37,517 bases of DNA from Candidatus Eiseniibacteriota bacterium (GTDB lineage Bacteria > Joyebacterota > Joyebacteria > Joyebacterales > Joyebacteraceae). The notes under the pieces were generated by a model that ran no database searches, was not told the origin of the DNA, and worked only from the letters and a program-made list of their open reading frames with translations. The translations under genes were made by a program, and so were the position numbers. Shown here in pieces: positions 24,496 through 37,517 of the stretch. The stretch's first letter is position 1, and every line of letters starts with the position of its first letter. The stretch lies in contig JAUVLP010000011.1 in assembly GCA_030600655.1 (NCBI GenBank), positions 1 to 37,517 of the forward strand. The letters are read 5' to 3'.

Positions 24496-27400
24496 ATGAG
24501 CAACAAGAGAAATGACAGTGCGCCGGAACGCGAGATGTTGAAAGCGTTCGAGAAAGCGCTCGAATCGCGGAGCGGCAGGGACGCCGCAGTCGCGGCCATG
24601 CGCCTGGGCGATGTCTATCTCGAATCTGACAGCTATACAGACGCGCTGAGCTATTTCGAACGGACCGAGGCCGGTGAGCTTCGTGAGAAGCTCACCGACC
24701 CTGAGTCTGCGGGTCTCCTGGTCAACATCGCGAAGTGTTACCTGGGTCTCGGCAGCTACGATGACGCCAGGCGCTACTGCGCGAAGCTGGACGATCTCGA
24801 TCTCAGTGATGATGATGGATCAGCATGGGCGGAAGCGAACGTCGTGCTCGCCCGCGTCGAGATCGAGAGCGGCCGTTACGATGATGCGCTGCGGGCGGCC
24901 CAGAAGGCCTACGAAATTCTGAAGACGAGGGCTGAGAGTCCGCTTCTGGCAGAGGCAGGCAAGATTCTCGGCATCGCGAACGCCGAACTGGGCAACATCA
25001 AGGCGGCACGCGACTATTTCACCGACTATCTGGTAACACAGAAGCGTCTCGGCAATGAGGCCGGACTCGCTTCCGCCTACAACAACCTCGGCGTGCTGGC
25101 CAAGCGGTCGGGTGATTTCCACGGAGCGCTTGAGTCTATCGAGAACGCTCTCGCCATCGACCGGAAGCTTGGTCATGCGATGGCGATCGCCGATCGTCTT
25201 ACGAACCTCGGTATCATTCTCTACAAGCTCTCCCGCTGGAGCGAAGCGGAAGAGAAGCTGAACGAAGCGCGTAGCCTCTACGGGCGGATCGGTGCGACTC
25301 GTGGCCTCGTGGCAGCGGAGTCCGCGCTGGGCAACATCTTCCGCGTGCGGCGCGAGTGGGGTGAGGCACAGAGGCTTTTCCAGAACGCCCTCTCTGCAAG
25401 CCAGGAGAAGGGGTACTTGAGGGCCGAAGCTCTGGCTCTGGAATTCATCGGCCATTTGGAGATGGACCGCGGTGAGCATGAGAAGGCGCTGAGGAGCCTC
25501 AATCGAGCGCTTGGGTGTGCATACAGGCTTTCGTCGAACAGCGATGTCGTCGGTGAGGTTCTGAGACGACGCGCCGAGGTCTACATGGAACTCGGCCGGT
25601 TCGACGAGGCGGAGCGTGACTGTGCAGACGGCATCAAGCTCACGCGTGAGATCAACGACAGTCTCGAAGAGGGTGCAACACTACGCGTGCTGGCCAGCGT
25701 CTGCTATGCCAAGGGTGAACGGACGGCCGCCGAGGTCCTCATTCACAGAGCTGAGGAGATACTACGTCGCATTGGGGAATCGTTCGAGCTGGCAAGGGCA
25801 GCGCTTGCGGAAGGCATTGGTCTCAGGGAATCGTCGACCGGTGAGGAACCGCCGATCGATCTTATAGAGGCGAGACTCTCGTCCGCAGCTGCAGCCTTTG
25901 CACGTATCGGTCTCCCGAACTGGGTGGCACAATGTGAGTTCGAACGCGGCAAGGCGCTCAAGTCGAGCGGACGGCCGGATCGCGCGCGCAGGTGGTTGGA
26001 GAGCGCAAGACTCAGGTTTGAGGCGGCGCACGACTGTCACGGCCTCGCTGAAATCGATGCCGCACTCATGGAACTGGATGTGGTTCTGGCTGACGCAGGA
26101 GTCGCGCGGCGGGGTCGGTATGCACTGATCGCTGAGGGTTATAGATTTCTCGAGACGGCAGAACCGAGCCCCGATGATCTGCATCACTTAGCCGGGGAGT
26201 TGGCCGGAGCTCTGTCCATCGACCGTCTGGTTCTCCTCCAGATTGTGGGTGGAGGGACGCCAGCGGTGGTTACGTCTGTCGACAGAACGGGTCGAGGAGT
26301 CTCGGATGCGTGCCGTTTTGTGCGCACGACCGTATCGAAGCGCGGCCACTCGCGTCCTCTTGTCGTGAGCAACGGACACTCAGACGGTGCGTTCACTCCA
26401 GCCGAAGTCGGCGCGCTTGCGTTGATACCGGCGGAAATCGGTCTCGACGGCAAACCGGTCTACCTTGTGTACGTAGACCGCTCCCGGACCGACAGATCAG
26501 TTGCTTTCACACAGAGCGATGTTGAATTCGTCGGCGCGGCCGGTCGGATGCTTGGCCTCATGCACTCGCGCGTCGGCGGGTTCACCGCCACGCCGTCGAC
26601 AGGGGAGGAGGCCGACAGGCTCCTTGATTCAGCGGAGACGGTTGGGCTTATCACCCGAAGTCCCGAGATGATCCAGATACTCGTGACCGTCGAGCAGCTG
26701 AAGGACAGCCACGTGCCGGTTCTCATACGTGGCGAATCGGGTGTGGGCAAGGAACTGATCGCGAAGGCCATTCACTCCGGCAGCAGGACGGCGACCGGAA
26801 GGTTCGTGGCTCTGAACTCCGGGGCCATCGCTCCGAATCTCCAGGAGAGCGAGCTCTTCGGCCACGTCCGTGGCGCTTTCACTGATGCCGACCGCGATCG
26901 TCAGGGTCTTGTCGAGGCCGCGGCGGATGGAACCCTCTTCCTCGATGAAATCGGTGAGATGAGCCCCGGACTCCAAGTGAAGCTCCTGAGATTCCTCCAG
27001 AATGGCGAGTTCAGGAGAGTGGGGGAGAGCGTTACGAGGACAAGCAACGCCCGAGTCATTTCTGCCACGAACAAGGACCTTCGGCAAGAGGTGGAGAACG
27101 GCGGATTCAGGCGAGATCTCTTCTACAGACTCTGCACCATTACAGTTGAGCTTCCCCCACTGAGGGAGCGCCCGGAGGATATCCCGGCTCTGATGGATCA
27201 CTTCCTTGAGTACTACGCGAAGCGTGAGGGAAAAGCGATCGCGGGGTTCAGCCGGGAAGTGAAGGAGCTCTTCCTCAGGTATGGATGGCGGGGGAACAAC
27301 GTGCGGGAGTTGGAGAATGAGGTCCGTCGCGGTGTCGCGCTTACCAAGAGCGGCGAGACCATCGGCATCGACAAGATGAGCCCCGAACTGAAGGTTCGCG

Positions 27401-27594
27401 CTGAAGGTGGAGCCGGTAGCGAACTCGATGAGAGTCGCCCCCGGTCGCTCAAGGATGAGGTCGTTACATTGGAACGAAGCCGGATTCTCGAAGCGCTGGA
27501 TCGCACGGGGTGGAACAAGCAGCAGGCAGCTCAGATCCTGGGGATGTCCCGCACGGGTCTGCATGCGAAGATGAAGAAGTACGGAATCGGATAG
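24496..27594 (+). CDS. TPR-repeat sigma-54-dependent transcriptional activator (AAA+ domain, Fis-type HTH)
   Basis: Multiple TPRs (e.g. LASAYNNLGVLAKRSGDFHGALESIENALAI); GAF-like segment; Walker A RGESGVGKELIAKAIH; GAFTDA loop; Walker B GTLFLDEIGEM; C-terminal LEALDRTGWNKQQAAQILGMSRTGLHAKMKKYGI (Fis HTH). Confidence 0.95.
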   Translation: MSNKRNDSAPEREMLKAFEKALESRSGRDAAVAAMRLGDVYLESDSYTDALSYFERTEAGELREKLTDPESAGLLVNIAKCYLGLGSYDDARRYCAKLDDLDLSDDDGSAWAEANVVLARVEIESGRYDDALRAAQKAYEILKTRAESPLLAEAGKILGIANAELGNIKAARDYFTDYLVTQKRLGNEAGLASAYNNLGVLAKRSGDFHGALESIENALAIDRKLGHAMAIADRLTNLGIILYKLSRWSEAEEKLNEARSLYGRIGATRGLVAAESALGNIFRVRREWGEAQRLFQNALSASQEKGYLRAEALALEFIGHLEMDRGEHEKALRSLNRALGCAYRLSSNSDVVGEVLRRRAEVYMELGRFDEAERDCADGIKLTREINDSLEEGATLRVLASVCYAKGERTAAEVLIHRAEEILRRIGESFELARAALAEGIGLRESSTGEEPPIDLIEARLSSAAAAFARIGLPNWVAQCEFERGKALKSSGRPDRARRWLESARLRFEAAHDCHGLAEIDAALMELDVVLADAGVARRGRYALIAEGYRFLETAEPSPDDLHHLAGELAGALSIDRLVLLQIVGGGTPAVVTSVDRTGRGVSDACRFVRTTVSKRGHSRPLVVSNGHSDGAFTPAEVGALALIPAEIGLDGKPVYLVYVDRSRTDRSVAFTQSDVEFVGAAGRMLGLMHSRVGGFTATPSTGEEADRLLDSAETVGLITRSPEMIQILVTVEQLKDSHVPVLIRGESGVGKELIAKAIHSGSRTATGRFVALNSGAIAPNLQESELFGHVRGAFTDADRDRQGLVEAAADGTLFLDEIGEMSPGLQVKLLRFLQNGEFRRVGESVTRTSNARVISATNKDLRQEVENGGFRRDLFYRLCTITVELPPLRERPEDIPALMDHFLEYYAKREGKAIAGFSREVKELFLRYGWRGNNVRELENEVRRGVALTKSGETIGIDKMSPELKVRAEGGAGSELDESRPRSLKDEVVTLERSRILEALDRTGWNKQQAAQILGMSRTGLHAKMKKYGIG

Positions 27595-27999: not shown

Positions 28000-28014
28000 T
28001 GGCACGATCTCTGC
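28000..28014 (+). promoter_or_regulatory. Candidate sigma-54 (-24/-12) promoter
   Basis: TGGCACGATCTCTGC: matches TGGCACG-N4-TTGC with one mismatch (C for T); GG and GC separated by exactly 10 nt. Confidence 0.55.
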
Positions 28015-28820
28015 CCTTAGAAGGGTTAGAACTTTGACAACAGGGCTTGGAAGGGGGTGTGGCCGTGAGTGAAATTATCAGGGGGGCGAGTCCGGTCGCT
28101 CTATGGCCCTCCTCCCTTCCAAGAACCACAGGCTCTCCGGATTCATCGGGGAGATGACATAGAACAGAGAGAGTAGTCATGCCGAGCGCGGCGAGAGTTA
28201 AGATAATAACCGTGATCCTGCTCATCGGAATAGCCTCGCCGTTCCTCGGCTGAACTTGAGCAGCTGTCGATTCCCTGGCACCTGGCGGCAGCTGAGAGAA
28301 ATAGAGAAGAAGAACGAACAACAGCAAGGAGTGACACCGACGAGACAAGACTGACTGCTCTCCACCCGGATTCCATCCGAACGGCGACCTTGGTCAGAAG
28401 CACTCTCCTCCCAGGATGGGATCCAGCCCACGAGGCCGGCAGGCGCGAACGATCTTCCACAATCCGCCTGCCGGCTGTTCTACGCTCGGGAGTCATAGTG
28501 CGATGTAGCGTGTAATCCAAGTAGACAGTTGTGAGAAAGTGCGGCGTGGCCATGAGGCGGCGCCGCACTCCGTATTGTGCCCGCACGCGCTTCTGTGGTG
28601 GAGTTGACGTGCGCTCCACGTGAACTGGTCGCCAACTTGCTTCCAACAGGCTGTCCAGGGAACGCAGTCGATCTGCGGTCAGCGGCGACGCCGGTTCCCG
28701 GTTGCTGATTTCTGTCCCCAGTGCCCAGTCCCCAGTTCCGAATCATCAGATCTTCCCCAATGGGTCATTCCAACCGTGCCATCATCGATTACGCAGAGCC
28801 GATTCGACCTGCGAGAGGAA

Positions 28821-31286
28821 ATGCACCGCGTCGCGTCCGGCTTCGAGTCGTCCGTCAGTCGCTTTCGATTGGAGAGCGCGATGCCGGACAAGGGCATCAG
28901 ATCGACCAACATCGCCGTCACTCTTCCGTTTCTTCTGATTGAAGGCATCAGGTTTGAAGGCGACCGCAACGCTGCGAGAGCGATGTCTCTGGGGAATGCA
29001 TTCGCCACGGCGCATTTCCTCTCGCAGGACGAGTTTCTGGACGGCACAAGGGGTGTCGACCCGAGAGCGCTCGGCTTTTGCGACAGCTGCCTGTGCGAGT
29101 TCGTTCGCCTGTACACTGAGCTCTTCCCACGGGAGAGCGAGTTCTGGCAGCACTACGAACGGTTCATGGATGAGTACTTCTTGAGCCTTGAGTGGGAGCT
29201 GTCGATTCACGACGAAGACGGAGGTTTCGGAGCCGTCGGGGATGACGAGCTCAACAGGACGCTCCTCCTTCTGGGAAGGAAGATGTCACCGCTGAAAGTC
29301 ACCGCCGCAGCGGTGGCCACTCTTGGTGGGCGTCCGGATCTCCTTCCGGCCATGGAGCGGCTGATCGAGGAGTACCACGCTGGTTACCAGCTGGCTGATG
29401 ACCTGGTCGATCTTGGTGAGGATCTGGCGGCAGGCCGTCCGTCGGCGACTGTGTGGATGCTGCTCAGGTGGAGCGGTTGTAAGGAGCTTCCCCGGAAGCT
29501 CTCCGCGAGAGGTCTTCTCAGGATGGCGGCCGAGTCAGGTGCTCTTGAGAGAGTAACCGGGACAATGGAGCTGTGTTACTCGCAGGCTCGAAGCACAGCG
29601 GAGAATTTTCCTTGTCCGCAGCTTGCTGAGTTTCTGAGTACTGCGCTTCGCGATGCCACTCTCGGCAACGCTCGAATGACGCGTCGTCTCTCACTCGAGG
29701 CGCAGGCTGTCGCGAGCAGTTCCGGGCACGGGAAAACTCGTAACGGCCAGGAGTCGCCCGACTTGCTCACACGCGCGATCCTTGCGGGGTACGAGCTTCA
29801 TACGTTCAGCGTAGACGGAAAGGCATTCGCGTTCGATCCAGCGTCCGGCTTCTTCTTTGAAGCAGACGCCGTCGCGGCAGACACAATCAGTTGGCTCAGG
29901 AGAAGGGCGTTAGTGACCGAGCGAGCGGTTCTCGAGCTCAATCACGGCGCTGTCTCCGTCCAATCCGCCATCTCCGAGGTGGCGGGGCTGGCGCCGGGCG
30001 GGAAGCCCTGGCGGAGTGGGAAGCAGGTCGCGGAGATCAAGATTTCCATCAAATCGTTGGCGCTTAACGTGAGCAACGCCTGCAACCTCTCGTGTTCTTA
30101 CTGCTACCTTGGAGCAATGGCAGCTTCAGATACGGGTGGTGGATGTCGCACAGAGAACAGGACCTGCGAGACCATGTCGGAGGAGGTGGCTTTCAGGGCC
30201 ATTGACCTCCTGATACGCGAGTCGTTCGGAGAGCCGGAGATATCGATAATCTTCTTTGGCGGAGAGCCGCTACTCGCGACAGACATGCTTCGTCCAGTCG
30301 TTCGCTATGCGCGAGAGCGTGCCGCGGAGGTGGGTCGGAAGATCCGCTTCCATATGACAACGAATGGAACCCTACTCACGTCCATCACCGCCGAGCTCCT
30401 CGCCGAGCTCGGGATCGACGTCATGGTCAGCATGGACGGCTGCGAAAAGGACCATGATGCAAACCGGCGATTCCGAAACGGCAAGGGATCCTACGCGGAC
30501 ATTGTACACAACCTGACAGAGTTGCCGCCTGGTTTCAATGTGGGAGTCAGGGCGACGGTGACGGAGTCATCGGAACCTCTGACAGAGCTTGTGGCGCATC
30601 TTGCGGGGCTCGGTTTTTCCACCGTGCATCTGGCTCCCGTCAGCGGACCGAGTATGAGCAGGGAGTTTGCTGAGCGGCTCTGCTCTGAGTTTGAGGGGCT
30701 TGCCGAGGCTGAACGCGACTTGTTGCTGAGTGGCTCGCGTCCATCTGTGAGTAGTTTCACCGAGCCGATAGTGCTTCTGGCGCGTGGGTCCCGCCGCGAT
30801 TCCCCGTGCGGCGCCGGGGCGCGCTACCTCTCTGTTGCGACGGACGGGACACTCTACCTTTGCCACAGATTCGCCGGTGATGATCGCTTCGCTGTCGGAC
30901 ACGTGGCAGGTGGCATCGACCGTCGGGCGATCACGTCATTGCTCAAGAAGCTGCGGGCAGCGTCGTCCGCTTGCCTGGACTGCTGGGCGCGCGATCTGTG
31001 CGGAGGACCCTGCCATCACGATCTTGACACGATGCCGGAAGAAGCATCGGGGCACGATGCGGTGCGATGCATCGTCAGGAGGAGAATCATTGAGCTTTCG
31101 ATGTGGTTGTACGCAGGGCTGTCTGAGGGGCAGAAGAGGCGGTTACGTGGACGAGCGCGGAGCGGGGCTGATGACGCAGCGGGTGTGCGGGACTGTCCAC
31201 CGGGAGGAGCAGATGGCGAAGTGAGTGTGCGGGATTGCCCGCCTGGAGGAGGGGGTGGCGAAGTGAGTGTGCGGGAGAGGGGGTGA
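28821..31286 (+). CDS. RiPP maturase: class-1 isoprenoid-synthase-like domain + RRE-like region + radical SAM/SPASM domain
   Basis: N-term Asp-rich motifs FLSQDEFLDG and GYQLADDLVDLGEDLAAGRPS; RRE-like YELHTFSVDGKAFAFDPASGFFFEADAVAADTISWL; radical SAM CNLSCSYCYLGA and IIFFGGEPLLAT; SPASM-type CGAGARYLSVATDGTLYLCHRF...CLDCWARDLCGGPCHHD. Start uncertain (ORF from 28620; alternatives ATG 28821 or ATG 28881 with GGAGAG SD). Confidence 0.88.
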   Translation: MHRVASGFESSVSRFRLESAMPDKGIRSTNIAVTLPFLLIEGIRFEGDRNAARAMSLGNAFATAHFLSQDEFLDGTRGVDPRALGFCDSCLCEFVRLYTELFPRESEFWQHYERFMDEYFLSLEWELSIHDEDGGFGAVGDDELNRTLLLLGRKMSPLKVTAAAVATLGGRPDLLPAMERLIEEYHAGYQLADDLVDLGEDLAAGRPSATVWMLLRWSGCKELPRKLSARGLLRMAAESGALERVTGTMELCYSQARSTAENFPCPQLAEFLSTALRDATLGNARMTRRLSLEAQAVASSSGHGKTRNGQESPDLLTRAILAGYELHTFSVDGKAFAFDPASGFFFEADAVAADTISWLRRRALVTERAVLELNHGAVSVQSAISEVAGLAPGGKPWRSGKQVAEIKISIKSLALNVSNACNLSCSYCYLGAMAASDTGGGCRTENRTCETMSEEVAFRAIDLLIRESFGEPEISIIFFGGEPLLATDMLRPVVRYARERAAEVGRKIRFHMTTNGTLLTSITAELLAELGIDVMVSMDGCEKDHDANRRFRNGKGSYADIVHNLTELPPGFNVGVRATVTESSEPLTELVAHLAGLGFSTVHLAPVSGPSMSREFAERLCSEFEGLAEAERDLLLSGSRPSVSSFTEPIVLLARGSRRDSPCGAGARYLSVATDGTLYLCHRFAGDDRFAVGHVAGGIDRRAITSLLKKLRAASSACLDCWARDLCGGPCHHDLDTMPEEASGHDAVRCIVRRRIIELSMWLYAGLSEGQKRRLRGRARSGADDAAGVRDCPPGGADGEVSVRDCPPGGGGGEVSVRERG
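31183..31282 (+). repeat. 42-bp tandem repeat (two full copies and a partial third) at the 3' end of the maturase gene
   Basis: 31183-31224 and 31225-31266 share 35/42 nt; partial third copy GTGTGCGGGAG from 31267. Encodes VRDCPPGGADGEVS/VRDCPPGGGGGEVS/VRERG. Confidence 0.9.
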
Positions 31287-31471
31287 TGAGTTTGAAGCAC
31301 ATGAAGCTGGCGAACGGCGCAAGAGGGGTGGCCGAAGTCGCGGGGAAGGCAGAGGTGAGTGAGGTATGTTTCGTCGATTACTCGCAGTGTCCTTCGTCGG
31401 ATCTCTGCTGGATTCTGGATGCAGGGTGTGGATGCGATAAGCATGACAACTGTTTCATAGACACGGGGTAA
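31286..31471 (+). CDS. Ranthipeptide-like RiPP precursor A (61 aa, six Cys)
   Basis: MSLKHMKLANGARGVAEVAGKAEVSEVCFVDYSQCPSSDLCWILDAGCGCDKHDNCFIDTG; ATG overlaps the maturase stop (TGATG). ORF-track start at 31235 lies inside the maturase gene and is not preferred. Confidence 0.8.
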   Translation: MSLKHMKLANGARGVAEVAGKAEVSEVCFVDYSQCPSSDLCWILDAGCGCDKHDNCFIDTG

Positions 31472-31511
31472 TCGGTGCGTGGACAGCCGCGTGCGGGAAG
31501 GAGATCAAGGG

Positions 31512-31679
31512 ATGAATCATCTCAGGCTGGCGAACAGCGGTTCAGATTCGTGTGGTGCAGCGCCTGATTCGCTTCTGTGCTACATCTTCGTTGATTGGGG
31601 AGACTGCGGTTCTGTTGATCAGTGCGGGTTTGACTTTTGTGGCTGTGGCAACAGAGACATCTGTCTCGTCGACTACTAG
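31512..31679 (+). CDS. Ranthipeptide-like RiPP precursor B (55 aa, seven Cys)
   Basis: MNHLRLANSGSDSCGAAPDSLLCYIFVDWGDCGSVDQCGFDFCGCGNRDICLVDY; SD GGAAGGAGATC upstream; shares H(M/L)(K/R)LAN leader and FVD(Y/W)..C.S.D.C...CGC...D.C core with precursor A. Confidence 0.8.
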   Translation: MNHLRLANSGSDSCGAAPDSLLCYIFVDWGDCGSVDQCGFDFCGCGNRDICLVDY

Positions 31680-31691
31680 GAGGGAAATACG

Positions 31692-33116
31692 ATGGCCGTG
31701 GGTGAGTGTTCTGCGGGTGGCGTAGCGAGGCGATCGACATGTGTCATCACCGTCGCGGCAATCCTGTGTGCCGGGGCACTCACCGCGGCGCAGCCGGATG
31801 CCCGTGCGGGCGCATCCGCAGCAGCAGCGCAGGTGGATGCCGGTGTCGTGACTATGGACAAGCTGTGGGTGACGAGCCTCGACATTCCCGGGGCAAATAT
31901 CGCCAACGCGCTTCTTGCTGATCTCAATGGAGATGGGGCTAGCGAAGCCCTCGTGACGATGGGAAAGGGAAGGGAATCCTCCACGGTGGTCGCCCTCGAC
32001 CTGGAATCCGGGGCTGAGATCTGGCGTGTCGCTCATGCGGATCCGGCCAACTCGCTCACGGCCGATCTTCTCGCATCTCCGGGGGAGGAGGTCGTGACGT
32101 GCTCTGGGAACAGGATTCTGGTTCAGAACGGTGCGACGGGCGAGATCCTCGCCGGGCGCGAGCTGCTTGGGAAGGTTCGTGGCATCGGTGTCGTACAAAC
32201 GACATCCGGAGAGCAGCTCATAGCTCTTACTGTTTGCGGCGATGAGAGTGATGACCTCGTGGCTATGGGGCTTCCCGGATTGGCCGTGCGTTGGAGAAGG
32301 ACGGTTGCGCACGACGGGAGCGCGTTCGGGGATGGGGTGTCCAAGCTTATGTGCGCTGACATTGATGGGGACGGAGCGTCAGAGATTCTGTTTGTGGAGA
32401 ACGCGAACGTTCTCAGATGTGTCTCATCGGCCGGCGAGGATCTCTGGAGCACGAAACTGGGAGATAAGGGCCGCATGTATCCTGAGGGTGTCGCCAGCAA
32501 TCCGCCCGTTGTCGCGGATCTGACAGGCGACGGATACAACGAAGTTGCTGTCGGTTGCTTCGCCGGCGCGCTCGTTGTCCTTGACGGGGAGACGGGTGAT
32601 GAACTGGTTCGAATGCGGTTCGGCAACGAGTCTCACAAGGAAGTGCTCGCAAAGAGACGGTTTCCACGCTTCATCAGAAATGCGATCGCAAGAACAGGGG
32701 AACCGATAGGCGAGATGGTGCCTATCGAGGTGGACGGATCGACCGGCAGTGAACTCGTCTTTGGCTGCAGTGATGGCCTGTTGTATGCGGCGGCGCCCAA
32801 GTGGGAGAAGCGCGTCTGGGAACTCGATACCGGGGGCGATGTCTACGATGCTCCGGTGCTCGTCGAGCTGGCAGATGCCGGCTCGGGGGGGGACATTGTG
32901 CCGTATCTGGTGGCTTGGCATGAGCGGCGCGTCGGAGTGCTGGCGCTTGGGACAGGCGAAGAGATTGTCGCTCTTCCTGACGGGGTGGGGGCATCCGATG
33001 TGCTCGTGTACGATGTGAACGATGACGGCCGAGATGATCTAATCATCGTCAGCGCGAGCGCGCAGAGTGTGATGGCGGTGGAATTCCGCGCCGTGGTAGA
33101 CGAGGGGGAACGATGA
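31692..33116 (+). CDS. Secreted FG-GAP/VCBS-type beta-propeller protein
   Basis: Signal-peptide-like N-term; Ca-binding repeats DLNGDGASEALV, DIDGDGASEILF, DLTGDGYNEVAV, DVNDDGRDDLII; SD AGGAGGG overlaps the precursor B stop. Confidence 0.8.
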   Translation: MAVGECSAGGVARRSTCVITVAAILCAGALTAAQPDARAGASAAAAQVDAGVVTMDKLWVTSLDIPGANIANALLADLNGDGASEALVTMGKGRESSTVVALDLESGAEIWRVAHADPANSLTADLLASPGEEVVTCSGNRILVQNGATGEILAGRELLGKVRGIGVVQTTSGEQLIALTVCGDESDDLVAMGLPGLAVRWRRTVAHDGSAFGDGVSKLMCADIDGDGASEILFVENANVLRCVSSAGEDLWSTKLGDKGRMYPEGVASNPPVVADLTGDGYNEVAVGCFAGALVVLDGETGDELVRMRFGNESHKEVLAKRRFPRFIRNAIARTGEPIGEMVPIEVDGSTGSELVFGCSDGLLYAAAPKWEKRVWELDTGGDVYDAPVLVELADAGSGGDIVPYLVAWHERRVGVLALGTGEEIVALPDGVGASDVLVYDVNDDGRDDLIIVSASAQSVMAVEFRAVVDEGER

Positions 33117-33153
33117 GTGGCGGGAGATTCGTCGAATCGACAGAGGGGAATCG

Positions 33154-33813
33154 ATGAGAATTGTAGAATTCTCCGATGTCGGGAAACAGTTCCGGCGTCG
33201 CGGGCAGCGGTTGGATGCACTGAGAGACCTCAGCTTCACGGTGGCGTCGGGGGAGGCAGTCGCTCTCGTTGGTCCGAACGGAGCAGGGAAAAGCACGGCG
33301 CTCCGCATCGCGGCCGGACTTCTGATGCCATCACGTGGGCGGGTCGTTGTCTGCGGCTTCGACGTGAGGCGCGCGCCGGTGCATGTCAGGCGCCGTGTCG
33401 GAGTTTCTCTGGGCGCCGAACGCTCGTTCTACGCAAGGCTGACCGCAAGGATGAATCTCGCGTTCTTCGGGCGCCTGGCTGGGCTCTGGGGGAGCGAGTT
33501 GTCTTCTGCCATGGGCTGCGTCGCGAGCGAGCTGGATCTGGAGCCGTGGCTGAACATGCGTGCCGGGCGATTGTCCAGGGGAACGGGAGCGCGGCTGGCT
33601 GTCGCGAGAGCCCTCCTTGGTGCCCCGTCGCTTCTTCTTCTTGATGAACCGTTCGCTTCTCTTGACGTTGCCGGGTGTGCTCTTGTGTGTTCCGCGATCG
33701 AGCGAAGGCTGCGGAACGGATGCGCTCTCGTGATGGCGACTCACAGAGTGGAGGGGTCGCAGTTCTGCGAGCGGATCGTTGAGCTGCCGCTACCTGGGGT
33801 GGCGCGCGCATGA
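33154..33813 (+). CDS. ABC transporter ATP-binding protein
   Basis: Walker A GPNGAGKST, signature LSRGTGARLAVARALL, Walker B LLLLDEPFASLD. Confidence 0.95.
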   Translation: MRIVEFSDVGKQFRRRGQRLDALRDLSFTVASGEAVALVGPNGAGKSTALRIAAGLLMPSRGRVVVCGFDVRRAPVHVRRRVGVSLGAERSFYARLTARMNLAFFGRLAGLWGSELSSAMGCVASELDLEPWLNMRAGRLSRGTGARLAVARALLGAPSLLLLDEPFASLDVAGCALVCSAIERRLRNGCALVMATHRVEGSQFCERIVELPLPGVARA

Positions 33814-34625
33814 TGTTACGGGGCGCCATCAGTATCAGCTGGGCGTTCATCGTGAGGAGCGCCGCGACCTATGCAAGCTACCGGTCGAAGCTGTTTCTGG
33901 GGTTTGCGTCACTTCTCCTGTCGGCCATCACCTTCCTGTTTGTGGGAAGGGTTGTAGAGCTTGCGGGGTCCGGTTTCGAGGACAGAGTTGGGATGACCTA
34001 CACGGCTTTCGCGCTCATCGGCGTGGTCGTGCACGGAGTATCTGCTTCCGGGCTGCACGTCTTCCGCAAGACGGTCAGGCGGGAACAACTGCAGGGTACC
34101 TTCGAGCAACTCGTATCGAGCGGCAGGCCCGTTGTCTCGCTCGTGCTTCTTGCCGGGCTGTCAGAGATCGTGATCGCTCAGGGCGTGGCACTTGGACTGG
34201 CCGCAATTGCTGCAGGTCTCCTGGGTGTGGCGATTCCGGTCACACTCCCTGCGCTGACGGCGGTGGTGCTCTACTCTCTGACGATGTGCGGGATCGGATT
34301 CATCTCGGCCGGACTCACGATGATCTTCAAGGAAGGAGAGCCAGTGTCGTGGGCGTTCGGGGCGCTCTCGGGGCTGTTGGGTGGTGTCTACTTCCCAGTA
34401 TCTCTTCTCCCTGTCTGGTTGCGGAGAGTGGCGTGGATGCTTCCAACGCCGCACGTTCTTTCGGTTGTCCGTGCCGGGTTTCGCGGGTCGGTCCACGACG
34501 CGGACACGGCCACTCACCTCATCTTTCTCTCCATTTCGGCTGCGGTCTCAGTCGCGATCGGTCTCGTGGTTCTCAGGCGCGGTTGCGATCACGCCAAGGT
34601 GACCGGGACACTCCGTGAATATTGA
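33810..34625 (+). CDS. ABC-2 type transporter permease
   Basis: Six or so TM segments; ATGA overlap with the ATPase gene; 'SWAFGALSGLLGGVYFPVSLLPVWLRRVAWMLPTPHVLSVVR' typical of ABC-2 permeases. Confidence 0.9.
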   Translation: MMLRGAISISWAFIVRSAATYASYRSKLFLGFASLLLSAITFLFVGRVVELAGSGFEDRVGMTYTAFALIGVVVHGVSASGLHVFRKTVRREQLQGTFEQLVSSGRPVVSLVLLAGLSEIVIAQGVALGLAAIAAGLLGVAIPVTLPALTAVVLYSLTMCGIGFISAGLTMIFKEGEPVSWAFGALSGLLGGVYFPVSLLPVWLRRVAWMLPTPHVLSVVRAGFRGSVHDADTATHLIFLSISAAVSVAIGLVVLRRGCDHAKVTGTLREY

Positions 34626-34743: not shown

Positions 34744-36651
34744 TTGCCGACCGTCGTGGTCGGTGCGCGAAGGAACCGAAAGACCGTCCGCCTGGAGTCC
34801 TTCTTGAGAACGTTCCGAAACACATACATCCCCATCACGTCTATCATCGTCGCTATTTTCGTCGTCGCGGCCGTGGTGGTGTTTACTTCAATGCGCGATA
34901 TCGATAGAGGACGGCAGCACGTGGCGGACGGGCTGGAGCGCAAGGCCGGCGCTATGCTCATGTTTCTGAGTACCGATTTCAGAACCGAACTCGTGTCGCC
35001 GCGATGGCAGTTGTCGCGTCTGGAGTTCTTTCTCTCAGAGGCTGCCAACCGCGGCCAGGCTGAATACCTGGCCCTTCTCGATTTCGACGGAACCGTCGTC
35101 GCGCACAGCGATACCACGATGGTCGGGGCGCCTCACATCGGGTGGTTGCCGGGGAAAGATGAGCTTGACGCGCCACCCATCCGCAGGAGGCGCGTCACCA
35201 TTGACGGGCATACGCTTCAACAGTACGTGGCGGCCTTCGATGTACATCCCGCTATGCTCTGTGAGAGGCCGCCACGGAGGTTCGGTCACAGGATGAGGCC
35301 GCCCTGCGATATAGAGGCTGTCGCCGGGCGCCTGTCGGAGCTTCTGAGAAGGCCGGTCGATCTGTCGCATCCAACGCGCCTTTACGGCGTTGTGGCACTC
35401 GACCCCACGGAGATAGAGAGAACATTCCTACTCTCTCGCGATCGCACGGTTCTACTCGGCGCTATCCTGATCATCGTTGGTGGAGCGGCCATCTACTTCC
35501 TCTTCGTAGTGTCCGCATACCGCTCGACGCAGACTGCGCTTGCGAACATGCGCACATATACGGACAACGTCATAGAGAGCATGGCGAACGGGCTGATATC
35601 CGTCGATGCCGACGGCCGCGTTGTGACCATCAACTCACGAGCGCGTGCCCTGTTCGGACTGGGTGACGCGAAGATTGCCGGACGACGCCTTGATGGTGTG
35701 GCGGGTATCGAGCCGGGTTCCGAGCGTGCCGGATTGGATCTGGTGCTTCGGGGCGAGAAGGATATAGTTGAAGTAGAGGGGACAGCCACAGTAGCGGGTG
35801 AAAAGATTCCTGTCTCGGTCAGCGCATCGCTGCTCCGGGACGAGGACGGCGAGCGAGCGGGAACGGTTCTGCTCTACCAGGATCTGCGCGAGATCGAGGC
35901 GCTCGAGGCCGAGCTGGAGCGAGGACGTCACCTCGCCTCCCTTGGCAGGCTGGCGGCCGGCGTGGCTCACGAGGTGCGGAATCCCCTCAGCTCGATCAAG
36001 GGATTCGCACAGTTCCTGCGCAGCAAGTTCAGCCCTGGCTCCGAGGAAGAGCGATATTCCGATATCATGATCGAAGAAGTTGAGCGACTCGATCGAGTCG
36101 TGCAGGAGCTGCTTGATTTTGCGAAACCTGTCGTTGCTGAGATCCGACCGGGTGACACCAATGCGATCGTCGAGGACGCGCTCTCGCTCGTGTCGGAGGA
36201 CGCGGACTTCAAGAACGTCAGAATCGTCACCAATCTGTCTGATGGGCTGCCGCGCATCCTCGTGGATTCGAGGCAGGTGCGCCAGGCACTCCTCAACGTG
36301 CTTCTGAACGGCATGGAAGCGATGACGGATGGCGGGACACTTACGGTAAAGACGAGAATTGTTGTTCCCGAAGACGGCGCGATCGCGGCGACCGCGGGCG
36401 AACGACCGGAGCAGGTCGCCATCGACATCGCAGATACGGGTGATGGGATGAGCGAGCAGGAACTCGCGAAGCTGTTCGAACCGTTCTACACGACGAAGCC
36501 GACCGGGACCGGTCTTGGATTGACGATAGTCTCACGACTCGTGGAACAGAACGCCGGGCATATCCATGTTGTGAGCGAAAAGGGGAAGGGGACTACGTTC
36601 TCCATGGTGTTCAGAACTACGCCCGGGGAATCAAATACAGATTCGAGCTAG
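34744..36651 (+). CDS. Membrane sensor histidine kinase (NtrB-like, PAS + HisKA + HATPase)
   Basis: Two TM segments flanking an extracytoplasmic region, PAS-like segment, LAAGVAHEVRNPLSSIKGFAQFLRSKF (H-box), VRQALLNVLLNGMEAM (N-box), GTGLGLTIVSRLVEQ. Confidence 0.93.
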   Translation: MPTVVVGARRNRKTVRLESFLRTFRNTYIPITSIIVAIFVVAAVVVFTSMRDIDRGRQHVADGLERKAGAMLMFLSTDFRTELVSPRWQLSRLEFFLSEAANRGQAEYLALLDFDGTVVAHSDTTMVGAPHIGWLPGKDELDAPPIRRRRVTIDGHTLQQYVAAFDVHPAMLCERPPRRFGHRMRPPCDIEAVAGRLSELLRRPVDLSHPTRLYGVVALDPTEIERTFLLSRDRTVLLGAILIIVGGAAIYFLFVVSAYRSTQTALANMRTYTDNVIESMANGLISVDADGRVVTINSRARALFGLGDAKIAGRRLDGVAGIEPGSERAGLDLVLRGEKDIVEVEGTATVAGEKIPVSVSASLLRDEDGERAGTVLLYQDLREIEALEAELERGRHLASLGRLAAGVAHEVRNPLSSIKGFAQFLRSKFSPGSEEERYSDIMIEEVERLDRVVQELLDFAKPVVAEIRPGDTNAIVEDALSLVSEDADFKNVRIVTNLSDGLPRILVDSRQVRQALLNVLLNGMEAMTDGGTLTVKTRIVVPEDGAIAATAGERPEQVAIDIADTGDGMSEQELAKLFEPFYTTKPTGTGLGLTIVSRLVEQNAGHIHVVSEKGKGTTFSMVFRTTPGESNTDSS

Positions 36652-36757: not shown

Positions 36758-37517
36758 ATGGTGGAGAAGCACCTCAGAATCCTTGTGGTTGATGACCAGT
36801 CGAGTGTGCGTGAACTCCTCAAGGCCGTCCTCGAGAGCGATGGTCATAAGGTAGACGTTGCTCCCGATGGGGAGAGCGGCGTCGAAAAGCTGGCCGGTGG
36901 GTTTCACGACCTGGTCATCATGGACATCCGGATGCCGGGCATCAACGGCATTGATGCCTTGGGACGGATGAAGAAGGCGAGCCCGGACTGCGGCGTCATC
37001 ATGATGACGGCCTACGCATCGGTTGAGACCGCCGTCGAGGCCATGAAGCTTGGGGCATTCGATTACATCACGAAGCCGATAGATATCGACGAGGTCCGTT
37101 CGGTTGTGTCGAAATTCACCGATGAGTCGTCCGGGGCGGCTGAGGAGAAGCCACCCGAGATCGAGCCGTCGAGCGAGATCATAGGAACGAGCGCCGCGAT
37201 GCGGGAGGTGCTGGAGCTGACTCGCCGGGTCGCCACGAGCGATGCCACGGTTCTCATCCTCGGCGAGAGCGGGACAGGCAAGGAGCTCATAGCGCACGAG
37301 GTACACCGGACGAGTTCACGTGAACACAAACCATTTGTAGCCGTGAACTGTTCGGCCATCCCCGGAGGTCTTCTCGAGAGCGAGCTGTTTGGTCACGAGA
37401 AGGGCGCTTTCACCGGCGCCGGCCGGCAGAAGCGGGGGCGGTTCGAGCTGGCGGTGGGTGGGACCATCTTCCTGGACGAGATCGGCGACATGTCGTCCGA
37501 GCTACAGGCCAAGTTGC
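36758..37517 (+). CDS. NtrC-family sigma-54 response regulator (3' end outside window)
   Basis: Translated manually: [68 protein letters not shown]...[20 protein letters not shown]...[50 protein letters not shown] upstream. Confidence 0.95.

Follow-up and report, generated by a model that had tools for sequence, protein, structure and literature searches.

What does an enzyme that joins a prenyltransferase-like domain to a radical S-adenosylmethionine (SAM) half make of the two small Cys/Asp-rich peptides encoded next to it? The question is raised by a locus on contig JAUVLP010000011.1 of Candidatus Eiseniibacteriota bacterium, of which positions 1 to 37,517 were analysed (the window). This genome belongs to Ca. 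Effluviviacota, a phylum of marine seeps (PMC11323493), and its named relatives in GTDB are Ca. Eisenbacteria/Ca. Effluviviaceae metagenome-assembled genomes. In the window, the maturase gene is followed by the genes of the two peptides (A and B), a secreted beta-propeller, an ATP-binding cassette (ABC) ATPase and an ABC-2 permease. The original prediction, made from the letters of the window alone, had described these genes as a candidate operon for a ribosomally synthesized and post-translationally modified peptide (RiPP), and every gene was found where it had placed it. The tight same-strand spacing it described was also located at all three junctions, as the maturase stop overlaps the start of peptide A (TGATG at 31284-31288), the stop of peptide B overlaps the Shine-Dalgarno sequence of the propeller gene (31677-31683), and the ATPase and permease genes overlap (ATGA at 33810-33813). 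We consider it somewhat probable that the maturase is a bifunctional enzyme, whose products would be thioether-stapled, Trp-prenylated peptides that are exported and active in the cell envelope.

The C-terminal half of the maturase matches Pfam Radical_SAM, and all ten cluster-binding Cys (three of the radical SAM motif and seven of the SPASM domain) are invariant in its homologues. Ahead of them, a RiPP recognition element (RRE) was located by alignment to the QhpD, SCIFF and CteB models. The radical SAM domain, SPASM cysteines and RRE that had been predicted for this gene were recovered in this way, while the Pfam polyprenyl_synt profile gave no match to the N-terminal domain. The first-ranking NCBIfam model is PapB (NF047865) at 263.9 bits, which does not reach the curated cut-off of 340, and the second is QhpD (TIGR03906) at 254 bits, under its cut-off of 453. 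The best PDB match of residues 326-765 is CteB (5wgg). Placed in a tree among 78 relatives, the enzymes of Effluviviacota group in a separate clade with full support, which excludes QhpD and the one bona fide PapB; its stem is long, as are the branches, so the exact point at which the clade attaches is uncertain.

The peptide cores show a pattern that fits this assignment. In the 18 A-type peptides, C25, D28, C32, D36, C38, D42, C47, D51, C53 and D56 are invariant across genera, and in the 19 peptides of type B or C (the latter a third precursor present in some relatives) C23, D28, C32, D36, C38, D41, C45, D49, C51 and D54 are. The five Cys and five Asp alternate strictly, each Cys being followed by its Asp in Cx2-4D spacing. 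PapB makes Cys-Asp thioethers in CXnD sequences with n from 0 to 6, and none when the residues are transposed (PMC9413430), so the alternation seen here, Cys before Asp, would meet the needs of a PapB-like enzyme. Five of the six Cys/Asp pairs originally counted in peptide A are conserved, whereas the sixth Cys is common only to the same genus and one other genus; the predicted mass loss is therefore -10 Da and not -12 Da. The leader motif K/N-H-L-R/K-L-A-N-G stands ahead of both cores. Both peptides are under purifying selection, with a within-genus pN/pS of 0.09-0.32 for A and 0.07-0.15 for B. None of the NCBIfam models, QH_gamma (NF037958) included, matched either of them. Moreover, the small Cys-rich open reading frames (ORFs) proved to be conserved beside the maturase homologues, one of the points on which the original prediction had hinged. 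An RRE-radical SAM-SPASM enzyme adjacent to conserved precursors with CxnD/E pairs is characteristic of ranthipeptides, and at the level of sequence the PapB and QhpD scores, the conserved precursors and the CXnD tolerance of PapB lend good support to a ranthipeptide-like pathway with Cys-to-Asp thioethers; the six crosslinks first expected for peptide A did not hold. Elsewhere, an unfused PapB-like radical SAM gene of Actinobacteria UBA7524 (L088, 980-7731) has as neighbours the genes for a peptide that shows this alternation (CSVLDLCWSYDGSGWCPNYDVCNYDFKTRCPVYDSCNADYS), for ABC transporters and for a CAAX-type protease, and an Actinomycetota locus (L121, 1223-4270) contains two tandem QhpD/PapB-like radical SAM genes without a recognised precursor.

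The N-terminal domain (domain 1) was modelled by AlphaFold2 as confidently all-helical (predicted local distance difference test, pLDDT, 84), and all 25 of its Foldseek matches in the PDB at E <= 0.001 are polyprenyl synthases. The isoprenoid synthase fold first proposed for it is thereby upheld, and its role, which had been left unexplained, can now be described as PalQ-like. A profile built only from Effluviviacota domains detected 20 PalQ-like proteins of Paenibacillaceae at 60-92.5 bits, 15 of which are encoded beside a precursor with a nitrile hydratase-like leader peptide (NHLP) ending in Trp. With the reverse profile, scores of 49-92 bits were obtained for the Effluviviacota domains, and hhalign related the two groups at 99.7% (E 3e-26). 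By comparison, the two prenyl synthases of the same genome, the only controls used, reached 11.8 and 6.6 bits against the domain 1 profile and 7.7% in hhalign. Measured against these two synthases, domain 1 has more in common with PalQ-like proteins than with canonical prenyl synthases; a generic polyprenyl synthase identity was rejected, given this distance and the lack of a Pfam match. In the first genome sample, one standalone homologue was found outside the phylum (L056, 6711-7646). Its neighbours are a histidine kinase and a RiPP precursor with an NHLP leader and a final Trp, the same arrangement as in PalQ-PalX-PalP, to which the experimentally characterised Trp prenyltransferase PalQ belongs (PMC10853753). 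Residues D70, D74, Q190, D193, D194, D197 and D201 are invariant, this homologue included, and provide the Asp-rich motifs and the Gln ahead of the second motif that are typical of peptide Trp prenyltransferases resembling trans-isoprenyl diphosphate synthases (trans-IDS). According to a review, every trans-IDS-like peptide prenyltransferase characterised acts on Trp and has a Gln directly ahead of the second Asp motif (PMC13290415). Domain 1 is thus predicted to be a peptide Trp prenyltransferase homologous to PalQ, and the two genuine prenyl synthases of the genome are able to supply donors. As for the Paenibacillaceae enzymes themselves (L184-L203), five of the 20 loci lack a Trp-ending NHLP neighbour in the stretch examined, so other substrates may exist for them.

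Exactly one Trp is present in 38 of 38 peptide cores, placed as C-W in A, as D-W-G in B and C, or, as a third alternative, as D-W-C. The last is found in the A peptides of both operon copies of one genome (G005) and in the C peptide of another (G010), where the usual Trp has been lost and a new one gained. Trp is likewise the only feature shared by the ComX pheromones (PMC5331326). Since shared ancestry leaves only two informative replacements, the one-Trp rule is suggestive of Trp modification and not proof. It could be argued that only the radical SAM half acts, by crosslinking, while domain 1 is a non-catalytic pseudo-synthase for substrate holding or dimerisation. This would agree with a first Asp-rich motif that is variable at position 2, with the failure of Pfam polyprenyl_synt to recognise the domain and with the dimerisation of PalQ-type enzymes (PMC10853753). 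However, both Asp pairs, the Gln ahead of the second motif and K159 are invariant even in the standalone PalQ-like homologue, the first motif of PalQ itself is DxxxD (D89/D93), and every core has one Trp; we regard a pseudo-synthase as rather unlikely.

We hypothesize that the locus gives rise to two exported peptides (one to three in relatives), whose leader, (K/N)HLRLANG, would be bound by the RRE of the maturase. The radical SAM/SPASM half would install as many as five thioether links from Cys to Asp in each peptide, as homology to PapB and QhpD and the invariant C/D alternation suggest, and the fused PalQ-like domain would transfer an isoprenyl group onto the single Trp, as suggested by its homology and the one-Trp rule. 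Both stapling and prenylation would be guided by the leader in the cytoplasm, and the ABC-2 transporter would then export the modified peptide. The probable site of action of the product is the cell envelope, where it would work together with the secreted propeller of the same locus. This is the weakest step; by analogy with quinohemoprotein amine dehydrogenase (QHNDH), the peptide possibly docks on the propeller.

Several points weigh against this bifunctional scheme. A Trp at the terminus is strongly preferred by PalQ (PMC10853753, PMC13290415), whereas that of these peptide cores is internal, a position that ComQ and ChrPC do accept. The single Trp per core is partly a matter of common descent, its replacement being seen in two lineages only, and domain 1 could be a mere scaffold. 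The propeller is tied to the peptides by gene order alone, and gene order in the phylum is conserved beyond the locus, as rlmN and sppA show. Furthermore, no leader protease is encoded near the locus, and the modification chemistry, thioether as well as prenyl, is inferred throughout.

The distribution of the system bears on its function. Profile searches found the maturase in 19 of 20 Effluviviacota genomes and in all eight genera, the sole exception being 57% complete, and in all 13 genomes of good quality. Peptide profile matches in these genomes are confined to the maturase locus; a fragmented genome has its peptide on another contig, which presumably continues that of the maturase. The gene order, whose comparison among related genomes the original prediction had proposed, recurs in relatives wherever the contig is long enough. 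The operon is nearly always single-copy, and rlmN-sppA adjoins the block in every genus where testable; the block is therefore ancestral and vertically inherited. Its phylum-wide presence at one fixed chromosomal position does not look like that of an accessory natural-product cluster. Among the best 79 loci of an 84,980-species scan, the N-terminal domain was matched in Effluviviacota loci only, and the prenyltransferase-like/radical SAM fusion was seen only there. Among the loci surveyed, the combination of maturase, Cys/Asp peptides, exporter and secreted propeller was not found outside the phylum.

An ordinary antimicrobial ranthipeptide (bacteriocin) cluster would have the same layout of RiPP and ABC-2 exporter, and the L088 cluster with its transporters and protease is comparable. 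Yet the universal, nearly always single-copy and vertically inherited state of the system, together with the lack of a recognisable immunity or peptidase gene, makes a bacteriocin highly improbable. A quorum-sensing pheromone system similar to ComQXPA or PalQXP might instead be sensed by the PAS-HisKA kinase and response regulator encoded downstream, which follow in every long contig, and PalQ-type clusters, L056 too, hold a histidine kinase. This synteny may, however, reflect general gene-order conservation only. Moreover, pheromones diversify fast, whereas the B cores are 67-79% identical across genera, above the 41-47% of the maturase, and we consider a pheromone unlikely. The high conservation of the B core and the universal presence of the system argue against both functions. 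A conserved role in the envelope is likelier than a bacteriocin, given a system that is fixed throughout the phylum and a B core that shows little change.

The propeller itself is not diagnostic, since Foldseek returned generic propellers of BamB, pyrroloquinoline quinone-dependent alcohol dehydrogenase (PQQ-ADH) and rhamnogalacturonan lyase. The peptides might be small subunits of a secreted propeller enzyme, as gamma is on the beta propeller in QHNDH, with the Trp converted to a redox cofactor. Outside the phylum, QhpD is indeed the most frequent relative of the radical SAM half. The qhp operon, a close parallel in layout, likewise brings together a radical SAM enzyme that forms thioethers, an enzyme that modifies Trp, a small protein bearing Trp, a beta subunit and an ABC exporter, and C-x5-W in peptide B equals the Cys37-Trp43 spacing of QhpC. 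On the other hand, the peptides have no NCBIfam match, even to QH_gamma, the propeller resembles BamB/PQQ-ADH and no QhpB-type model matches it, and the Trp-acting domain is a prenyltransferase relative and not a QhpG-type flavoprotein. The haem domain of the QHNDH alpha subunit (PF09098) is present in 0 of 20 genomes. An identity as QHNDH was rejected for want of this di-haem subunit, and the wider idea of a QHNDH-like cofactor subunit appears very unlikely.

The coordinates of the locus are collected in Table 1. Homologues of the maturase conserve residues ahead of Met28821, so the start probably lies about 15 residues upstream, at the in-frame GTG. Farther upstream, the first sigma-54-type site, about 820 nt before the maturase, is kept in 15 of 15 aligned loci and was seen upstream of five more; in the window taken by itself, its pattern does not outperform shuffled sequence, so it counts by conservation only. 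Expression is probably sigma-54-dependent. The RNA element contains a nearly invariant GGGGGGCGAGtcCGGTCGCTCT hairpin region, and a model search recovered it in 20 of 20 Effluviviacota genomes and 0 of 59 others, one per maturase locus, with two copies in the two-operon genome. Rfam assigned it to no family, the only match, to mir-485, being sub-threshold and treated as chance. The micro-ORF is present in 15 of 15 loci (24-26 aa, 14 invariant residues), in both copies of G005 and in four more loci, and varies mostly at third codon positions. Its reading as a selenocysteine-containing lipoprotein, through the TGA after ...FLG, was rejected, as further stops immediately follow. In G005, RNA element and micro-ORF stand upstream of both maturase copies; because they co-duplicate with the operon, both are probably part of it.

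Table 1. Features of the locus and its surroundings in the window.
Feature	Position	Strand	Basis or remark
TPR-sigma54-activator-HTH_8 transcriptional regulator	24496..27594	+	Pfam; adjoins locus in all genomes with enough contig
Sigma-54-type -24/-12 site TGGCACGatctCTGCC	28000..28015	+	Kept at same relative place
Structured-RNA-like element	28019..28155	+	Alignment; fold with 26 pairs, 6 changed on both sides
Hydrophobic micro-ORF MPSAARVKIITVILLIGIASPFLG, 24 aa	28179..28253	+	Downstream of RNA element
Second sigma-54-like site TGGTCGCCAACTTGCT	28626..28641	+	Similar in most relatives, 117-308 nt upstream of maturase
Predicted bifunctional maturase	28821..31286	+	Likely true start GTG 28776
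Maturase domain 1, residues 1-310	28821..29750	+	Trans-IDS-like, PalQ-like; D70xxxD74, Q190xxD193D194xxD197xxxD201 invariant
Maturase RRE region, residues about 326-400	29796..30020	+	Alignment to TIGR03906/TIGR03974 from model position 2/1, and to CteB 5wgg residues 7-450
Maturase radical SAM C421xxxC425xxC428 and seven-Cys SPASM	30048..31070	+	C663, C681, C718, C721, C727, C731, C750
Precursor peptide A, 61 aa	31286..31471	+	Leader KHMKLANG; core with five C...D pairs, one Trp (C-W)
Precursor peptide B, 55 aa	31512..31679	+	Leader NHLRLAN; core with five C...D pairs, one Trp (D-W-G)
Secreted FG-GAP/PQQ_2-type beta-propeller, Sec-type signal-like N-terminus	31692..33116	+	Pfam; AlphaFold2 pLDDT 85; Foldseek BamB/PQQ-ADH; conserved
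ABC transporter ATPase	33154..33813	+	Pfam ABC_tran
ABC-2 type permease	33810..34625	+	Pfam ABC2_membrane
PAS-HisKA sensor kinase	34744..36651	+	Conserved downstream; possible functional link
Response-regulator gene, cut by window end	36758..37517	+	Synteny; NtrC-like label from position and length only

Some relatives depart from this layout. G005 has two paralogous operon copies, L050 (G005:C56) and L054/L055 (G005:C89/C76), and one A-type peptide was seen with each. L053 (G016:C108, 3901-6472) has separate but overlapping reading frames for the prenyltransferase part and the radical SAM part, owing either to a frameshift or to a natural split. One genome (G013) has an additional ORF of 437 aa between permease and sensor kinase (L047, 12018-13331).

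The broadest form of the proposal, in which one bifunctional enzyme makes a hybrid RiPP class (Trp-prenylated and multi-thioether) as a fixed envelope component of the whole phylum that docks on a dedicated propeller and is under the control of a sigma-54 promoter, a leader RNA and a micro-peptide of its own, is tentative, and we place its chances somewhat below even. In the literature searched, no description of a fusion of a Trp prenyltransferase with a thioether-forming radical SAM enzyme was found, and the words RiPP and radical SAM are absent from the description of the phylum. If the bifunctional reading is true, this would be, as far as we found, the first natural fusion of this kind. 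One polypeptide would staple and lipidate the same peptide, which would be useful for making stapled lipopeptides, and an uncultured phylum would have a RiPP among its fixed, core components and not as an accessory natural product, with a function open to co-expression test.

Among known systems, freyrasin PapA-PapB is similar in its RRE-radical SAM-SPASM maturase and in its C-x(n)-D pairs with Cys before Asp. The Effluviviacota enzymes differ from PapB in their own clade, mixed CxnD spacing of 2-4, extra N-terminal domain, secreted propeller and a score below the cut-off. SCIFF substrates of CteB have six Cys without Asp pairing, and CteB has no prenyltransferase domain. With QhpD/QhpC the locus shares a radical SAM family for Cys-to-Asp/Glu thioethers, a predicted coupling of Trp modification to the radical SAM enzyme, and an operon that also encodes a beta subunit and an ABC exporter; in qhp, the thioether-forming enzyme works in complex with the Trp-modifying one (PMC7876137). 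It differs by lacking the haem alpha subunit and a QhpC match, by its short CxnD spacing and by a prenyltransferase domain in place of the flavoprotein QhpG. The likeness to PalQ-PalX and ComQ-ComX consists in the homologous domain, its Asp motifs, the Gln ahead of the second motif and the single Trp of the substrate. PalQ and ComQ, however, stand alone and have NHLP-type or ComX precursors as their substrates, whereas the Effluviviacota domain is fused to a radical SAM enzyme and is predicted to act on Cys/Asp-rich peptides.

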